Source of the DNA: Myxococcales bacterium
GTDB lineage: Bacteria; Myxococcota; UBA727; VGSZ01
Direction: 5' to 3'
DNA length: 64,000 nucleotides
Assembly: GCA_023248635.1 (NCBI GenBank)
Contig: JAHFED010000001.1
Coordinates: 310,001 to 374,000, forward strand
Shown one piece after another: positions 4,482 through 62,315 of this stretch (the stretch's first letter is position 1; each line of letters opens with the position of its first letter). The translations under genes and the position numbers were made by a program. Under the pieces are notes generated by a model that worked only from the letters and a program-made list of their open reading frames with translations, did no database searches and was not told the origin of the DNA.

Positions 4482-7400
4482 TCAGTCCTCCTTCTCGATG
4501 GCGGCGCCGATGGCCTGATCCAGGTCGACGACGTCGACCCGGCCGTTGTTGTCGACGTCGACGTCGGCGTCGGGTGGGCTGTCGGTGGCGATGGCCACGG
4601 CGATGCGCAAGACGCGGGCGCGCTCGTCGGCCGACAGCGCTGGGCAGCCGTTCCCCGCGGATCCAGCGACGTCCGGACAGCGATCGCAAACGTCACCAAC
4701 GGCGTCTTCGTCGAAGTCCAACTGCAAGGGATCGCCTGCGCTGGGACAGAGATCGTCGCCGTTGGCCACGCCGTCGCCGTCGTCGTCGGCGGCTGGGTCA
4801 CCTTCTCCTTCTCCTTCGCCTTCTCCTTCCCCTTCTCCTTCCCCTTCTCCCCCTTCGTCGCCTTCCCCTTCGCCCTCACCCTCACCCTCGCCTTCTCCTT
4901 CCGCGGGTTCACCGGGCGAACGCAGCCGCACGAAGCCGTCGACGAAACGCTCCGTGGAGCCCTGCAGGGGCGGGCCAGGCAGCAGGTCTTCGTCGTCGAG
5001 GCGGGCCGCGATCAGCGTCGGGGCCAGAGCCAGGGCCGTGTGCACGCGGAGGTCGAAAGCGGCGCCGTCGACGATGACCAGATCAACCACCGCGCGGGCC
5101 ACGGCCGCGTTGTCGGGCAGCGCGCGGGCTGGGGCGGTCTCGATGCTGCGACGCAACGCAATCGCACCATCGACCACGATCTCCACCAGGCCGCGGTCGA
5201 TGACGTCGTCGGGGGAGGCAGCGGCTCCTGCGGCCACGCTCCCGCACTCCGACAGGCCGCCCGCCCCAGGCACACACAAGGGCACCACCACTTCATCGTG
5301 GGCCTCGGCAGCGCCCGCCACCGCTCTCACGAAGCGCAGATGCAATGCGTGCACGCCCGCTGCGAGGGTGGCCAGCGGGATGGCAGCGATCTCCAAAACG
5401 ACGTCGTCAGCGGCACCCGTCGGGTCGTCGAAGGCCGGCGGCGCCAGAATGACGAAGGAGCGCGCGGGCACACCGACGAAGACGACCCCGTGCCCCGTGG
5501 GAGGCTGCAGGCCGTCGTTGACGAGGGCGAAGCGATTGCGGGCCTCTTGCACTTCGGGCTGCTCGGCGGCGGCAAGCAGGGCCGGATCGAGCACGGTCTG
5601 CGTCGCTCCAAAGGTGGCGTGTCCGGTGAGGTCGCGCAGCTCGGTGCCGGGCGGAAAGCGGGTGGCGATGAAGGCGCCCTGGTTGGCGTCGTTGCCGAAG
5701 CCCACGTCGCCGCCTTCGCCGTCGTTGAGCACCACGATGCCAGCGGCGTCGCCGTCGACGTCGCGTTCGTAGGCCCAGGCGTTGTCGCCGACCAAGAGGT
5801 TCTCCATGCTGCCGCGCGCCATCCGTCGAGCAGCCCGCACCGTCGAGACCAGCGAGGTCTGGGGACCACCCGAGAAGGAATCGCCCAAGGCGTCGGCTCG
5901 ACCCGAGCGCACGAAGGAAAGTGAGCTCCAGTGGTTGCCGTCGTAAAAGACCGCGGCGTCGGCGTCGCGGGTCAAGATGAAGGCATGGCTGAGATCCGTG
6001 GCACCGCTGCGATACACGCCGCCGTCTTCGCAGCGCGAGAAGCGTGCATCGGCGTTGCTCGTCGTGAAGGCGGTGCCCGGCGCCCCGCATTCATCGTGCG
6101 ATTGGACGAACGCGATGCCGCTGCCCCGGTTCAATCCACCAAAGGCACCGATGTCCTCGCAGCCGGGCGTGCGCTTCACCGACAGCTGACCAATGTCGCC
6201 GCTGTGTATGCCTGCACGTCCGCCAATGTTGAAGAAGAGCGGAAAGTCAAGCACCCGCTGTCCGCCGACGATATAAGGACGCAAAGCGTCACAAGATCCA
6301 GTAAAGTCCTCACCAAAAATCGCGGCATCATCGACGAGGTCGACGTCGTTGGCGTCGTTAAAACCATGCAGTTCATCGTAGGTGTCTTGGATGACCTTGT
6401 TGAAAGCGATCGGGTCATCGGGGAAATCTTCACCGTAGAAATTGGGCCAGACATGCTTGATGGCATCGAGCCGAAAGCCATCGGCGCCGGTGTCGAGCAT
6501 CAGCCAGCGGATCCAGCGCAGCAGCCACGCGCGCGGGTCCTCGGGATGGGGCGTCGTCGGCGTCGAAAAGCGGTAGGTCGCCCGGTCGGCGTCGTCGCGA
6601 TCGTTGCGCACGAAGGTGGGCAAAGGCGTGCCCAAAATGGAATTGCGGCCATCGATGCCCCGCGCGCCATCACCGGTGGCGTACTGCTCGGTGGCGAGGT
6701 CGTTCAGCCCGAGCAGCGACCAATTGGAGACCTCGAAGCCGAAGTCGTCGAAGTTGGTCATGCGTGGGGCCCGCACCACGTGCGTGTAGCCGTCGAAGAA
6801 GGCAGGCAACGGCGACGGGGCGCCGGGATCGAGCAGGGCCTCGGCGAGGGTCATGCTCGCCACGCGCACCTCAGTGCTGTCCTGTCGCACGCACACCTCG
6901 GCGCCGGCACCCAAAGAGACGCCTTGTTCGTCGACAACACGCCACTGGTTGCCGCCAAAGGCATCGCCGTCGACGGTGGCTGCGGGTTGGCGGGCGCAGA
7001 AGGGGCAGCCCGTGCCGCCGTCGTCGCACTGCCCGTTGTTGGGGATGCGCGCCGGCAGGACGTGAAAGTCCCAGACGCTGGTGCCCGGGAAGCCGTCGTC
7101 GCCCCCGAGCTCGACAAAACCTCCGATGTCATCGGCAGCGACCCCGGCGTTCTCGATGGTGTTGGGATTGCCCTGGTGGTTCATGACGACGTCGAAGTAG
7201 ACGCGAACGCCGAAGCGATGGGCGGCAGCGACCAGGGACTGCAATTCGGCGTGGGTGCCGTAGCGAGTGGCCACGGTCCCGCGCTGCGAGCGATCGCCGA
7301 GGTCGAAGCGGTCGTACACAGCGAAGCCGACATCGCGCACGCCCTCGGTCCCCTTGGTGGGCGGCGGCAGCCACAGTGCGTCGTAGCCCGCGTTTTTCAC

Positions 7401-7963: not shown

Positions 7964-8881
7964 ATGTTCAAGCGCCTCGCCCCCTTGGCTTTGACCCTCA
8001 CCCTCGGCCTGTCCTGCACCACGGCCCTCGATGCCCCCGGCGAAGGCGAAGGCGAAGGCAAAAGCGAAGGCGAAGGCGAAGGCGAAGACAGCGGGGACGC
8101 CGACGACGACGGCGTCGCGGATGCGTTCGACGCCGACACGACTGATCCCTGCGTGCCCAACGACGCAGCCAGGGCCTGCATCGCTGGGGGCAACGACGAC
8201 GACGACGACGACGGCGTGGAAAACGGCCTCGACACCGATCCCTCGGATCCCTGCCAGCCGAGCACCGACGCCCCCAGCTGCTTCGTCGGTGACTCCGACG
8301 GTGACGGCGTCGTCAATCTTGCGGATCCTGCCGCTCTCGATCCGTGCGTGCCCGATGCCGACACGCAGGCCTGCCTCGAGGCCAACGACCCGGGGGAGGG
8401 CGAAGGCGAAGGCGAAGGCGAGGGCGAAGGCGAAGGCGAGGGCGAAGGCGAGGGCGAGGGCGAGGGCTCAGGCGGCGATGATGGGGATGCCGTCGTCAAC
8501 GCGCCCATCGGCGAGGGCGAGGGCGAAGGCGAAGGCGAGGGCGACGGCGGCGGAGGTGGCGGCGGCGGTGGCGGCGACAGCGGGCTGGGGGGCTGCGCTT
8601 TTCTGTACGATGGCGTCGATCACCCGGTGTCGCTCCCAGGAGCGAATTGCCACAACCTGGTCGGCGGTGTCGTGCTGGATGGAACGAGCGCCAGCGATCG
8701 GGAAGATTGCTATACGAAAATCAGCTTTGGGAGCTGCAACTGCGCAATCTACGGGGTCAAGGGCTATTTCCCCGTTCAGGGTCAGAGCTACTTCCTCGAT
8801 CAGCGCTTCGGCAACAGCGACACCGTCAGCAGCGAGTTCTGCCAGAGCAACGGTCCAAACGTGGCCGCGACCCAACTGTAG
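7964..8881 (+). CDS. GE-repeat lipoprotein with TSP3-like Asp-rich repeats
   Basis: A 305-residue lipoprotein with lipobox GLSC at about residue 18. It has three Gly-Glu tracts, at about residues 26-43, 145-167 and 185-193. Between the first two are three repeats of the form DDDGV...DP.DPC.P....C, which resemble the calcium-binding thrombospondin type 3 repeats of deltaproteobacterial surface proteins. A glycine run leads into a cysteine-containing globular C-terminal domain of about 100 residues (from LGGCAFLYDG) that I do not recognise. The GE tracts are built from GGCGAA/GAGGGC hexanucleotides, so copy-number changes would keep frame. It is monocistronic and convergent with the following gene. 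Function is unknown beyond probable surface display. Confidence 0.85.
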   Translation: MFKRLAPLALTLTLGLSCTTALDAPGEGEGEGKSEGEGEGEDSGDADDDGVADAFDADTTDPCVPNDAARACIAGGNDDDDDDGVENGLDTDPSDPCQPSTDAPSCFVGDSDGDGVVNLADPAALDPCVPDADTQACLEANDPGEGEGEGEGEGEGEGEGEGEGEGEGSGGDDGDAVVNAPIGEGEGEGEGEGDGGGGGGGGGGDSGLGGCAFLYDGVDHPVSLPGANCHNLVGGVVLDGTSASDREDCYTKISFGSCNCAIYGVKGYFPVQGQSYFLDQRFGNSDTVSSEFCQSNGPNVAATQL

Positions 8882-16722: not shown

Positions 16723-16742
16723 GCGCTTGCTCAGCCGTCGGT

Positions 16743-16780
16743 GAAGTTCTGATGGTTCAAGACGCTGGCGCGTCTTGAAG
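16743..16780 (+). repeat. Palindromic repeat R2, copy 1
   Basis: A 38-base unit: GAAGTTCTGATGG followed by a hairpin built on TTCAAGACGC/GCGTCTTGAA. It overlaps the next copy by a few bases. R2 also appears at 16777, 17797, 17884, 36703 and 62244. Confidence 0.85.
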
Positions 16781-17835
16781 TTCTGATGGTTCAAGACGCT
16801 AGCGCGTCTTGAAGTTTGGATGTTTATCCCCAATGACCATTGATGTTCATTGCATCCGGCCACCACGGAAACCGTGTGCAGCCGCGGATGTGCTTCGGCA
16901 TCGCTGTGAGCTTCTGACATCGGTTGACGAGGAGCGCCTCGAGCTCGTCGAGCGACCGGAGGAGCCGATTTGCTGGAGCCTCGCGCAGGAACAATGGGTG
17001 GACGCCGACAGGCCAATCGACGGCGCCGCTCTTGTGCCAGCCAGCTCCGTCGAGGACGATGCGCTTCGTCTCGCTCGCCCCCACCGCCTTGGCGAAGTGC
17101 GCGAGAGCGATGTTGAAGGTGATCGTGTTCACCGATGGCAGCAGCAACCATTCGACGTCGCCGGTCGTTGGTCGCACGAAGCCGTAGAGGTAGAGCCACT
17201 CGTAACCAGGGGCTGGACGGCGACAGGGCGCTTTCCTCGGGGAGCCCACACGCGACGCGTCGTCGGCTTCACCCGATGCGCGCCTCGTCTTGCGCCCAGA
17301 CGTCGACCGTTGCTTCGGGGACGACGGCCTTGATGTCCTCGATGAGCGGGCCGATCTTTTTTTGAAGGCCTCCTGTTTGTCGACGTCGGCGTCCGCATGG
17401 CGGGTCTGCGGGCGCTGCAACGTGAATCCGCATCGGCGCAGGTACCGCCATCCGATCCGCTTCCCGACTTCGTCACCGAGGCGCTCGGCAATCCAGCGTC
17501 GGACCTTGTTGCCGTTCCAGAGCCCGCCGTCCGGCGACGGGCCCTCCAACGCGGCGATGGAGGCCTCGTCGAGCTTCAAGGCGGCGCCGATCGGCGAGAC
17601 CGTCGAGCGCCTCTCCGTCGAAGCGCTTCACGTAGTCGCGAACCCAACCACGCGGGTGACCCAAAGCGTCGCCGGCTTCGGCGCACGTCCAGCCCATGCT
17701 CACGAGTCGAATGGCCTCGATTCGGGTGCGGAGCTCGGCGTCCGTCGTCATCCGGGCGGCTTCGGTGAGCTCTTTGGTCGTCAGGTGCGGGACCAGTTCA
17801 AGACGCGCTAGCGTCTTGAACCATCAGAACTTCAA
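16777..17835 (-). mobile_element. Decayed IS630-type insertion sequence with perfect inverted ends
   Basis: The element is about 1.06 kb, a normal IS630-family size. The left end (16777-16814) and right end (17797-17835) are perfect inverted copies of a 38-base sequence that itself contains a hairpin (repeat R2). Between them lies only the frameshifted transposase. The expected TA target duplication was not clearly seen. The contrast between perfect ends and a broken enzyme suggests that the ends were conserved by gene conversion, moved in trans, or are recognised for another reason. Confidence 0.72.
16824..17751 (-). pseudogene. IS630-family transposase, frameshifted
   Basis: The transposase can be followed across three reading frames on the minus strand. 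An N-terminal helix-turn-helix (RIEAIRLVSMGWTCAEAG...WVRDYVKRF) starts at 17751. The next segment (GNKVRRWIAERLGDEVGKRIG) is in a second frame. The first catalytic motif, DVWAQDEARIG, is in a third frame after a run of seven T at about 17356. KPTTRRVWAPRGKRPVA returns to the first frame. APGYEWLYLYGFV through the second catalytic motif IVLDGAGWHKS is in the second frame again. At least four frameshifts mean no active enzyme. DDE transposases of this family cut and paste at TA sites. Confidence 0.85.
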
Positions 17836-22621: not shown

Positions 22622-22690
22622 GAATTCATCGCCGCCAGGTGATGAACCTGTAGACAATTCACCGACACGCGAAGCGCTGTCGGTGAATTC
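22622..22690 (-). repeat. Palindromic repeat R1, copy 1
   Basis: A 69-base element with two hairpins. The first is GAATTCACCGACAG...TGTCGGTGAATT. The second is TTCATC.CC..G..GGCGATGAA, joined to the first by TGTCTACAGG. It differs from copy 2 (36637-36704) at only two or three positions. It sits in the 488-base gene-free region 22471-22958 between infA and the PP2C gene. Confidence 0.9.
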
Positions 22691-30577: not shown

Positions 30578-31693
30578 TCAATTGGACCCGACGTAGTTGA
30601 AGATGAAAGCGACTGCGCGCTCGGTGCACTGCGCGTCTTGGGCGTAGACCACACCGAGCGCCGGTTCGCCAAAGCCGAAAAGATCCTCGCTGCCGTAGAC
30701 GATGACGTCGCCGTCGGCGCTGCCGGTGCCGGTGTTCACCTCCATTTCGGCGCGGGTGGAGCCGATGCCCAAAGCGCCGTCCTTTCCGACGAAGGGGGGC
30801 GACACCACGATGGAAGTGATGCCGGTGGCGTCGCCGCAGCTCTCGCCACAGAGCCCGACCACCCGAACGCCGGCCGCCGCCCAGATGCGCACGAAGACGT
30901 CGCCGACGCCGTTGACCGCCACCACGCCCTCGGCGTCGAAATTGGTGCCGAGCAACGCTGAGGCGGTGGCAAAGGTGTCGTCGCGATCCAGCGTCGACAG
31001 GGACTGCTCGTCGGCAGCGAGGGTGAGGGGCAGGGTCCAGATGTCGCTCGTCTGCGGCCGGAACGCTCCGATCTGCACGACGTCGCCAGCGTCGTCGATC
31101 AGCAGCTGTCGGCCCGCCGCCCCAAAGAAGCGGATCTCACCTCCGCCCACCGCTGCGCTCGCCGTCGCCGCGCCCGCTGGTGCCGGTGCACCGATGGCGG
31201 ATCCGTCGCTCGACGTCGCGGTCGATCCAGCCAGCGTGATCACGCGGGCGACGCGATCGCCGTTGGCCGCCGCCGGTGTGGTCGAGAGGGTGCCGTCGGC
31301 GTCGACGAACTGCACCAGCACGCCGGCGGCGCAGTAGAGGACCCGAAAAGCGTTGTCGTCGTCGACGCCGGCGCCCAAGGCCGCGCTGACTTGCGCGCGG
31401 GTGGTGGTGCCGACCGTGATGGCGAGAGCGTCAACGGTGACGACGTCGCCATCGAAGTTCACGGTGCCCGTTACCGGCGTTCCGGCGCAGAGATCGATGA
31501 GGGGGCAGGGGTCTCCTTCGCCCTCGCCTTCACCCTCACCTTCCCCCTCACCTTCCCCTTCTTCACCCTCACCTTCGCCCTCCTCGCCTTCGCCCTCTTC
31601 GCCTTCGCCCTCGCCCTCGGTGACCAAAAGCACGGGACAAGCCGCTAGGATCAGAGCGGGCACGACGACAAACGCCAGAGAGAACCGCATCAT
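30578..31693 (-). CDS. GE-tethered lipoprotein, unknown domain
   Basis: A 371-residue lipoprotein starting at the first of two adjacent ATG codons (31693 and 31690). The lipobox LAAC is followed at once by a Gly-Glu tract of about 35 residues, a likely flexible tether. The mature domain of about 310 residues is rich in short beta strands. Two near-repeats each begin with a threshold-like phrase (VDALAITVGTTTRAQVSAAL and GALGIGSTRAEMEVNTG), suggesting an internal duplication of about 170 residues. Five cysteines are spread over it. I do not recognise the fold. It lies between an MFS permease gene and a glycosyltransferase gene. Confidence 0.85.
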   Translation of the reverse strand: MMRFSLAFVVVPALILAACPVLLVTEGEGEGEEGEGEEGEGEGEEGEGEGEGEGEGEGEGDPCPLIDLCAGTPVTGTVNFDGDVVTVDALAITVGTTTRAQVSAALGAGVDDDNAFRVLYCAAGVLVQFVDADGTLSTTPAAANGDRVARVITLAGSTATSSDGSAIGAPAPAGAATASAAVGGGEIRFFGAAGRQLLIDDAGDVVQIGAFRPQTSDIWTLPLTLAADEQSLSTLDRDDTFATASALLGTNFDAEGVVAVNGVGDVFVRIWAAAGVRVVGLCGESCGDATGITSIVVSPPFVGKDGALGIGSTRAEMEVNTGTGSADGDVIVYGSEDLFGFGEPALGVVYAQDAQCTERAVAFIFNYVGSN

Positions 31694-33028: not shown

Positions 33029-33610
33029 CTACTCGGGCGTCGCGACGCAAGCGGCGTTGGAGACACTGTTGTCCGCGTCGCTCACCTGCACGGCAGCCTC
33101 ACCCACTTCCGTGCCACTGGTGCAGATCGGGCAGAGGATAACGAAAAAGCCACCCGACTCGGCGACCGAGGGGGAGTTCGAACAATCGCTGGGCGCTGCG
33201 CCGGCGAGGGAGACTTTCACATCGCTGTTGCCGATCTCATCGTTCCCGGCGCCCCAGCTTCCGTCTTGGGTGACGATCACAATGTCGATCTCGTTGGTGC
33301 GGTCGCCGAAGATGGCCGTGTCGCAGGTCTCGCCCGTTCCGCCGGAGTCCGTGAGGACGTCGAATTCGGCATCGATCGCGATGTCGCCGTCGCCTGCCTC
33401 GTCGGCGAACGCGCTGGTATCACAGACTTCGCCTTCGCCTTCGCCTTCGCCTTCGCCTTCGCCGCCATCGCCTTCGCCTTCGCCTTCTTCGCCTTCGCCT
33501 TCGCCTTCGCCTTCGGCGAGGCCGTCGGACGCAAGGCAGTCAGCGGCCATGAGGGGGATGCTGAGGGCCGAAGCGGCGACCGTCAGAAGAAACTTGGTGG
33601 AAACCTTCAC
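33029..33610 (-). CDS. Small secreted GE-repeat protein
   Basis: A 193-residue exported protein read from a GTG at 33610, fixed by a strong AAAGGAG six bases upstream. The signal peptide ends near PLMAADC. The cysteine may be a poor lipobox, so it could be either secreted or lipid-anchored. Residues about 33-62 are a Gly-Glu/Asp tract of hexanucleotide origin. The remaining 130 residues are acidic, contain six cysteines (for example GETCDTAIF, FVILCPICTSG) and look beta-rich. No family is recognised. It is a single-gene unit closed by its own terminator and divergent from the ferredoxin operon. Confidence 0.87.
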   Translation of the reverse strand: MKVSTKFLLTVAASALSIPLMAADCLASDGLAEGEGEGEGEEGEGEGDGGEGEGEGEGEGEVCDTSAFADEAGDGDIAIDAEFDVLTDSGGTGETCDTAIFGDRTNEIDIVIVTQDGSWGAGNDEIGNSDVKVSLAGAAPSDCSNSPSVAESGGFFVILCPICTSGTEVGEAAVQVSDADNSVSNAACVATPE

Positions 33611-36636: not shown

Positions 36637-36704
36637 GAATTCACCGACAGCGCTTCGCGTGTCGGTGAATTGTCTACAGGTTCATCGCCTAGCGGCGATG
36701 AATT
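36637..36704 (+). repeat. Palindromic repeat R1, copy 2
   Basis: A full-length R1 unit, nearly identical to the inverted copy at 22622-22690. It is the main content of the 335-base gene-free stretch 36560-36894 and runs into an R2 fragment (GAAGTTCTGATGG) at 36705-36721. I see nothing clear in the rest of the stretch. Confidence 0.9.
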
Positions 36705-49401: not shown

Positions 49402-49436
49402 AATTGTCTACAGGTTCATCGCCTGGCGGCGATGAA
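49402..49436 (+). repeat. Palindromic repeat R1, copy 3 (truncated), beside the REP-type transposase relative
   Basis: Only the second half of R1 is present: AATTGTCTACAGG followed by the hairpin TTCATCGCC-TGG-CGGCGATGAA. It begins 33 bases upstream of the NAD(P)-binding protein gene and ends 16 bases past the stop of the transposase-like gene. Confidence 0.9.
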
Positions 49437-49452
49437 CTCTCTGCTGCCTGGC

Positions 49453-50406
49453 TCATTCTTCGGTGGCGGTCTCTCTGGGTGCTCGGCCCTTGAGGGCTTC
49501 AAGCAGCGAGGCGAAGGCCTCGTGCTTCACCTGCGACATGCCTTGCTGCACCAGGCGACTGACCTGGGCCTTGTCTCGACCCAGAAAGCCAGCAACCTCG
49601 GTGACGCTGCGATCCGCGTTGCGCACCGCGCTGGTGGCGAAGAGGCGGCGCGCCATCACCAACTCTTGGTGGCGCTGCTTGCTGGTGAGATCGTCGACGG
49701 AGACGTTCATCAAGAGCGAGACGCGCCGGGCCAAGGTGGCCAAGGCTGGTCGACGACGTCCCCGCCACTCGACGCCAGCTTCGGCCAAGACGCCTTCGGC
49801 GAAGCGCTGATCGCCGCCGACGCCGCCGATCACCTCCTTCACCGGCAGCTCATCTTTTTCCAAAGCCGCGGCCTCGACGAAGCGGGCGAAGGCGCGCTGG
49901 GCCACGGGCAAGGTCGGGCCCCAGGTGCCGATCACCGACATCGTTTCGACGAGGTCACCCCACTCGTCGGAGCGCACGTAGGCGCGGTGGCTCGACCACG
50001 GATAGGTATCGGGCCGCCGCACTCTGCCGCTGCGCACGGGCCACAGGTGCACCCAGCGCACGGCCTCAGCGACGCGCTCATCGGGAATGAGCAGGGAGCG
50101 AAAGCGCCCCTCGAAGAGATGACCCGTGCGCTTGGTGCGGGCGTTCACCCGCCTCACGTGGCTGGTGTGCAGACGCTGGACGATCTGGGCCAGCGGCAAG
50201 CGCAGGGGCGTGGCGACGAGGCGAACCTCGCTCTTCATCAGGCACCAGGCGAGGAGGCGAACATGTCCTTCCCGCACGAGCTCGCGCAAGGCGCCCAGGT
50301 AGCCCTCGAAGTCGCTGTCGTCGAAGAAGACCCGCCCGCCATTGTTGCCGCGGGCGACGACGACGTGGGGTCGTCCGACGAGCGCGATGCGACGGGTACG
50401 GGGCAT
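49453..50406 (-). CDS. REP-associated tyrosine transposase relative lacking catalytic residues
   Basis: A 317-residue protein with the layout of RAYT / Y1-transposase proteins: HVVVARGNNGGRVFFDD (14-30), LLAWCLMKSEVRLV (51-64), GHLFEGRFRSLLI (95-107), VRWVHLWPVRSGRV (116-129) and TYPWSSHRAYV. In active members the second block reads MPNHVHLL (the HUH metal site) and the fourth RYIxLNPVRAG with the catalytic Tyr. Here the histidines are E60 and R62 and the tyrosine is W118, so DNA cleavage should be lost. Residues about 235-290 resemble the DnaA C-terminal DNA-binding domain (VSVDDLTSKQRHQELVMARR, AQVSRLVQQG). The frame is intact. An R1 repeat lies just downstream, and the TauE gene ends 3 bases upstream. 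Confidence 0.9.
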   Translation of the reverse strand: MPRTRRIALVGRPHVVVARGNNGGRVFFDDSDFEGYLGALRELVREGHVRLLAWCLMKSEVRLVATPLRLPLAQIVQRLHTSHVRRVNARTKRTGHLFEGRFRSLLIPDERVAEAVRWVHLWPVRSGRVRRPDTYPWSSHRAYVRSDEWGDLVETMSVIGTWGPTLPVAQRAFARFVEAAALEKDELPVKEVIGGVGGDQRFAEGVLAEAGVEWRGRRRPALATLARRVSLLMNVSVDDLTSKQRHQELVMARRLFATSAVRNADRSVTEVAGFLGRDKAQVSRLVQQGMSQVKHEAFASLLEALKGRAPRETATEE

Positions 50407-50409
50407 GGG

Positions 50410-51165
50410 TCAGCCTACGCCAAGAGAGTGGGGAGCGGCGCGCACGACGAGCGCCACGCCAGCGACGACGAGCAGCACGCACACCGCCAAGCGAAAGGCA
50501 CGCTGCGGCACATGCAGGTGCAGGAGGTTGCCGACGACAAAGCCCAGCACCAGCGGCACGCCCAGCAGAGCACTCTGCTGCAGCTGGGGCAGGCGCAGGC
50601 TGCCGTCGACGACGTAGCCGCCCACCAAGACGATGGAGAGCAGGAGCCACAACAACGCCAGGGTGGCGCGAAATTCAGCCTTGTCGGGGAGAGTGCGCGT
50701 GGCCACCCAGACCACCGGCGGACCGCTGGTGCCAAACAGGCCATGGACGACGCCAGCGAGGAGCAAGACCGTGCTGCGCACCGGCCCCGGCAAGGGCACG
50801 GTGTCCTGTCCCCGGAGGGTGCGCTGCAGCTCGAAGGACGCGAGCACGGCGATCGCCACACCCACACCCAGCAGCAGCGCCTCCGGACGGCCGAGGCGAA
50901 AGAGGGCCATGCCGACGACGACGCCGGGGAACATCGCGGGCAGCACCTCTCGGAAGAGAAAACGGAAGTTGATGTGCGCCCGACCGCGCACCACCAAGGT
51001 GAGCGACAGGATCAAAGAGAGGGGCTGAAAGACGGGGAAGAGGCGGTCGAGGGGCATGAGGTGCCCGCCCAAAGACACCGTCACCAGGGCACTGCCGAAA
51101 CCCACCGCGCTCTCGACGAGAAAGGCGAGAAAGAGCACGAGGCCGAAGCTCGCTGGGACATCCAC
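50410..51165 (-). CDS. TauE/SafE-family permease
   Basis: A protein of about 251 residues with eight hydrophobic helices and the family's duplicated signature ([21 protein letters not shown] and [21 protein letters not shown]). Members export or import sulfonates, sulfite or other anions. The substrate is unknown. The start is uncertain. The GTG at 51165 is taken because the earlier ATG at 51198 would overlap the start codon of the divergent regulator gene. The palindrome TACCATGGTA (51176-51185) lies in the short space between the two genes and could be an operator. The transposase-like gene follows 3 bases after the stop. Confidence 0.85.
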
Positions 51166-51196
51166 ACTGTCGACGTACCATGGTAAACGCTGCACC

Positions 51197-62243: not shown

Positions 62244-62315
62244 TGCAAGACGCGCAAGCGTCTTGAAGTTCTGACGGTTCAAGACGCTGGCGCGTCTTGA
62301 ACATCAAAACTTCAG
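62244..62315 (-). repeat. Palindromic repeat R2, double copy
   Basis: Two R2 hairpins (CAAGACGCGCAAGCGTCTTG and TTCAAGACGCTGGCGCGTCTTGAA, the latter split by a TGG loop) joined by AAGTTCTGACGG. They fill much of the 191-base gap 62121-62311. The repeat reaches into the stop codon (62312-62314) of the histidine kinase gene. Confidence 0.88.

Follow-up and report, generated by a model that had tools for sequence, protein, structure and literature searches.

Known domesticated RAYTs (REP-associated tyrosine transposases) have been described as keeping the HUH motif and the catalytic tyrosine (PMC8266576), and their host role is unsolved. The 64-kb window that we analysed, a continuous stretch of DNA from a Myxococcales genome to which all positions refer unless another locus is named, carries a RAYT-related gene in which these residues are replaced. 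This raises the question of whether the product is a remnant on its way to decay, an enzyme with a rearranged active site or a host protein kept for what it binds. A sequence-only reading of the locus had proposed the last of these, a sequence- or hairpin-binding factor that might serve nucleoid organisation or repeat silencing, and had pointed to the palindromic repeat R1 beside the gene. The features of the locus are collected in Table 1.

Table 1. Features of the RAYT-derived gene and its surroundings in the window
Feature	Position	Strand	Remark
RAYT-derived protein, predicted to be catalytically dead	49453..50406	-	317 aa, no internal stop
E-V-R replacing H-u-H (metal site lost)	codons 60-62, 50221..50229	-	29-row alignment
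W-V-H-L-W replacing Y-x-x-x-N (nucleophile and third metal ligand lost)	codons 118-122, 50041..50055	-	alignment
DnaA-like domain, recognition helix GRDKAQVSRLVQQ, nearly unchanged across the class	codons 276-288, 49543..49581	-	
TauE/SafE-type permease gene, directly upstream, same direction	50410..51186	-	same order in congener G001
Truncated R1 beside the gene, spacer and hairpin B only	49402..49437	+	judged an incidental neighbour
R2 copies	16724-16847, 17818-17833, 62246-62301		

A RAYT-type core fused to a DnaA-like domain

The open reading frame encodes a RAYT-type Y1 core (residues ~3-145) fused, through a linker (146-221), to a DnaA-domain-IV-like helix-turn-helix (HTH) domain (222-290). 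An intact 317-codon frame, a RAYT ancestry and a DnaA-like end had all been claimed from the sequence alone, and the three claims hold. Indeed, the frame is uninterrupted, and the protein matches the NCBIfam model NF047646 (REP-associated tyrosine transposase) with E=1.5e-10 and 41.2 bits, under the curated cut-off of 80. The Pfam Y1_Tnp match (PF01797) is also sub-threshold (E=0.023, 15.2 against 23 bits), and Bac_DnaA_C is matched over residues 226-283 slightly below its cut-off of 31.5 (E=9.1e-7, 29.3 bits). The predicted structure contains the Y1 RAYT fold: the top PDB match of the AlphaFold2 model (nine input sequences, mean pLDDT 86, pTM 0.66) is 4ER8, the E. coli RAYT bound to a REP hairpin (E 2.3e-5, TM 0.73 by target), and two DnaA domain IV complexes, 3pvp and 1j1v, reach a target-normalised TM of ~0.8. 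PHROGs gave no match, and neither did an Rfam search of the 64-kb window. By these membership tests the protein is RAYT-derived, yet judging by its sequence it would not be a functional RAYT.

Loss of the catalytic residues

A 29-row alignment was built from the window protein, 11 orthologs belonging to its class and, from the phylum at large, 17 canonical RAYT/Y1 proteins. In class 2 proteins, the consensus Y-x3-N-P supplies an Asn metal ligand (PMC6006769), and the canonical relatives carry H, H, Y and N at the four catalytic columns without exception (17/17). In contrast, none of the four residues is retained in any of the 12 proteins of the clade formed by the window protein and its orthologs, hereafter the dead clade. 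The substitutions E60-V-R62 at the HUH pair and W118 at the catalytic Tyr, which the sequence-only reading had pointed out, thus fall on columns that hold H, H and Y in every canonical relative; in the window protein, W122 occupies the Asn position of Y-x3-N-P, and the third metal ligand is missing as well. Intact HUH or Tyr residues elsewhere in the protein, an outcome that the same reading had considered, are not seen, and a misalignment masking them finds no support in the 29 rows.

The catalytic positions of the dead clade have changed in more than one way. The HUH pair reads ExR, AxR, SxR, QxR or ExY across the 12 proteins, the second His being replaced by R in 11 of them; W, A, S, N, E or F stands in place of the Tyr, and W in place of the Asn in 10/12. 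Residues that are both lost and variable, together with scores under the Y1_Tnp and NF047646 cut-offs, are also what one would expect of a decaying, functionless RAYT remnant that happens to be uninterrupted so far, a reading to which we return below with the evidence on retention and selection.

Another reading of the alignment is that enzymatic activity was kept through other residues. H80 and H83 are kept in 11-12 of the 12 dead-clade proteins, unlike in the canonical ones, and the same is true of C55. A metal site relocated to these newly conserved residues (e.g. H80-x-x-H83), or the use of another nucleophile, is formally possible. However, the model places H80 and H83 in a long helix (residues 72-91), off the HUH strand, and in the 29-row alignment the Tyr helix of the dead clade has no conserved Tyr or Asn substituting for the lost ones. 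We therefore regard retained catalysis as highly improbable.

A single-copy gene inherited across the class

The gene is present in a single copy in its 6.53-Mb genome. A search for further RAYT genes, suggested by the sequence-only reading, found it to be the sole copy, with no significant Y1_Tnp match anywhere in that genome. A clade-profile search identified intact orthologs in 12 of the 16 class genomes examined, spanning five families; among the good-quality genomes (completeness of 90% or more, contamination of 5% or less) the figure is 10 of 11. The class genomes without the gene are two ultra-small ones (0.3 and 0.5 Mb) and two MAGs that are 70-73% complete; reduced class genomes of 1.3-1.8 Mb retain it. 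The same profile gave no match at E<=1e-35 in 179 other genomes of the phylum, and a scan of 84,980 species genomes returned eight loci, which by identity are the same orthologs.

The dead clade is monophyletic (branch support 100/99), showing a single origin, and its branching matches the rpoB tree except for family f2, whose place is weakly supported. This is most simply read as a single loss of catalysis that preceded the diversification of the class, with vertical inheritance since then.

Canonical RAYTs also occur inside the class. G011 carries one with HUH, Tyr and a DnaA_C domain (L042:9111-10055), which coexists with the dead gene and lies between inverted copies of AAGGTGTCAGGCCTTACAAGTTACA (L042:9049-10095, a TIRtron); this sequence occurs eight times within 18 kb. 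In G015, the canonical RAYT (L112:1008-1950) has a frameshift between its Y1 and DnaA_C parts, the dead gene being intact in the same genome. The repeat-flanked canonical form is patchy and decaying; the dead form persists. Extra Y1-like matches in G004 and G007 were considered as further dead copies, and the two examined are ordinary HUH-bearing proteins.

Purifying selection and a near-invariant recognition helix

A comparison of dN/dS among relatives, likewise proposed beforehand, revealed purifying selection: within the genus, the whole protein gives 0.08-0.17 and its DnaA-like part 0.05-0.14, with dS near saturation in several pairs and probably lowered by GC3 bias in others. The inference is confined to these pairs, the deeper ones being saturated or GC-biased.

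Conservation is distributed unevenly along the protein. Conservation of the RAYT core is 49% in the dead clade against 44% in the canonical set, whereas that of the DnaA-like domain is 58% against 23%, and the mean pairwise identity of the recognition helix (residues 276-289) reaches 80% against 19%. Some of this contrast stems from divergence, since the canonical proteins sample the phylum more broadly and align less readily in their C-terminal part; the closely similar values for the core argue that the contrast is not due to divergence alone. R277, K279, Q281, S283 and R284 are invariant in 12/12 dead-clade proteins.

These data weigh against the decay reading. A gene that stays uninterrupted in 12 genomes from five families, including reduced ones of 1.3-1.8 Mb, with dN/dS well below 1 and a near-invariant helix, does not behave as a functionless remnant, and we find that interpretation barely credible.

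They also bear on what the domain may recognise. The residues that read the DnaA box are not found in the HTH of the window protein: K279 aligns with the His of the DnaA recognition helix (structure sequence 2z4r), and classical DnaA boxes are thus not the expected target. A role in replication, the DnaA-like domain binding origin-type sites to moderate initiation or mark forks, would fit its predicted DnaA-domain-IV fold and the fork targeting that Quentin et al. suggested for the DnaA-like domains of subclass 2.1 (PMC6006769). With this signature residue altered, we consider such a role unlikely.

Palindromic repeats around the gene

R1 is a REPIN-like double hairpin in which a spacer around TTGTCTACAG separates hairpin A from hairpin B; the full form reads ATTCACCGACAGCGCTTCGCGTGTCGGTGAAT - TGTCTACAG - GTTCATCGCCTGGCGGCGATGAA. 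The sequence-only reading had noted a truncated R1 hairpin 16 bases past the stop codon and two more copies in the window. All three were found again, the hairpin beside the gene at 49414-49437, starting 16 nt beyond the stop, and the others at 22624-22647 and 36680-36703 (none expected by chance). A genome-wide count, also suggested there, gave ~246 hairpin-B copies, often in arrays with a period of 33 or 62-63 bp. A second palindrome family, R2 (GTTCAAGACGCTGGCGCGTCTTGAA), forms tandem units of 33-34 bp and has 339 near-exact copies in the genome.

Such abundance, the proximity of an R1 hairpin and the match of the core fold to TnpAREP bound to a REP hairpin are in line with the earlier proposal that the protein binds the hairpins of R1 (and R2) and silences or organises these palindromes. 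The distribution of the repeats argues otherwise. Searching six other class genomes for hairpin B, we found three diverged copies in one congener and none in the remaining five, which carry the same protein; the spacer search gave 212 copies in the own genome, one in that congener and none in 13 other genomes. R2 is absent from the seven other class genomes searched. Orthologs are thus found without R1 or R2 within the same genus, family and order, and we rejected both repeats as partners. R1 expanded in this species only.

The arrangement around the genes points the same way. A search for near palindromes next to the orthologs found no flanking REP-type palindrome, and the gene in the window has one truncated R1, on one side. 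An R1 cluster is expected next to ~5% of genes, an estimate that takes ~153 clusters (extrapolated from 100 listed places) and ~6,200 genes (assuming one per 1,050 bases), so that the R1 beside the gene is best read as incidental. Moreover, the frozen part of the protein is an HTH of the type that binds double-stranded DNA, and it is common to R1-free genomes. The link between R1 and the protein was therefore not borne out, and we judge a palindrome silencer distinctly unlikely.

Some further observations concern the repeats themselves. One R1 copy in congener G001 (L132) shows compensatory stem changes. No canonical RAYT that might mobilise R1 was found in the assembly. Separately, long GAGGGC/GAAGGC-type repeats lie on both strands of the window (8015-8609, 4778-4914, 31518-31637 and 33385-33554) and probably encode (GE)n-like linkers in several genes.

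Genomic context

In the genus of the window (G000 and G001), the dead gene directly follows the TauE/SafE permease gene, and genes for a CHAD protein and a polyphosphate kinase are near. In family f5, its stop codon overlaps the start of an alanine racemase gene in three genomes and is separated from it by 8 nt in the fourth; each of the four has a divergent acyltransferase gene upstream, and two have IMPDH downstream. In f2 (G004), the gene follows hisS. Such neighbours befit a resident gene. They are conserved only within a genus or family and thus name no regulon or function. A search for operators upstream of the orthologs gave 8-10-mers no better than shuffles, save one marginal 10-mer.

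A probable non-cleaving, DNA-binding host protein

Altogether, the gene has the properties of a domesticated host gene: it is single-copy, vertically inherited and under purifying selection. Its class-wide single-copy retention, the four catalytic losses in every member, the purifying selection, the near-invariant helix and the housekeeping neighbours strongly support domestication into a non-cleaving DNA-binding protein, which probably acts as a regulator. In this respect the sequence-only reading stood, and its association with R1 palindromes did not.

We propose the following scenario, to which we assign a probability of about 0.68. An HUH protein of the RAYT/TIRYT type, ending in a DnaA-domain-IV-like domain (the subclass 2.1.2 architecture of Quentin et al.), would have lost its chemistry in the ancestor of the class, and its gene would from then on have been passed down vertically, in single copy, as a gene of the host. 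With the metal His pair, the metal Asn and the Tyr nucleophile all replaced, the protein presumably no longer cleaves. Fold and conservation suggest that the DnaA-like HTH binds DNA, the frozen RDKAQVSRL recognition helix most likely contacting a fixed double-stranded site. The RAYT core may have been kept as a platform for dimerisation and/or for hairpin or ssDNA binding, and the protein may act as a transcriptional or chromosomal regulator. Counting against this scenario are the upstream search, in which no k-mer stood clear of shuffled sequence, a context that names no regulon, the newly conserved H80, H83 and C55, the limits on dS, the absence of the gene from four class genomes and the replaced DnaA His.

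More tentatively, and at somewhat less than even odds, the dead clade could represent a new regulator family: a class-wide core DNA-binder derived from an HUH transposase that lost catalysis altogether, combining a RAYT core (as a hairpin/ssDNA or dimerisation module) with a DnaA-IV-like reader of fixed specificity. If true, such a family would couple DNA structure to gene expression or replication. With no member having the chemistry of cleavage and the protein nonetheless retained, a host function would have to lie in binding; and since the helix is fixed across the class and free in canonical relatives, its target should be findable by SELEX or ChIP.

Comparison with known systems

The dead clade resembles RAYT/TnpAREP proteins (class 2 Y1 HUH, 4ER8) in the fold of the N-terminal core, in the GHLFEGRF-type motif and in the position of the Tyr helix, as well as in its single-copy, vertical behaviour (PMC8266576). 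It differs from them in that HUH, Tyr and the Asn ligand are lost in every ortholog, no REPs flank the orthologs and the family cut-off is not reached. In the literature that we searched, Bertels 2017 being covered through the papers citing it, a catalytically dead, lineage-wide RAYT is not described. Esi of Sorangium (PMC5442856) is described as cupin/jumonji-like and is unrelated.

With DnaA domain IV (1j1v, 3pvp) the protein shares the predicted HTH fold; unlike DnaA, it has no AAA+ part, and K279 takes the place of the DnaA His.

The closest architecture is that of TIRYT/TnpAY1 proteins of subclass 2.1.2 with Bac_DnaA_C, which have the identical two domains (Di Nocera 2013, PMC3733652; Quentin 2018, PMC6006769). 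Y1 proteins bearing DnaA_C make up this subclass, and most TIRYTs belong to subclass 2.1 (PMC6006769, PMC3733652). A canonical member of this type with repeated TIRs even sits within the class (in G011). The dead clade differs from TIRYTs by its fixed recognition helix and by being, from its residues, catalytically dead. Quentin et al. (2018) set proteins without the motifs aside as probably non-functional (PMC6006769); the dead clade indicates that proteins dropped from surveys for missing core motifs can be real conserved families.
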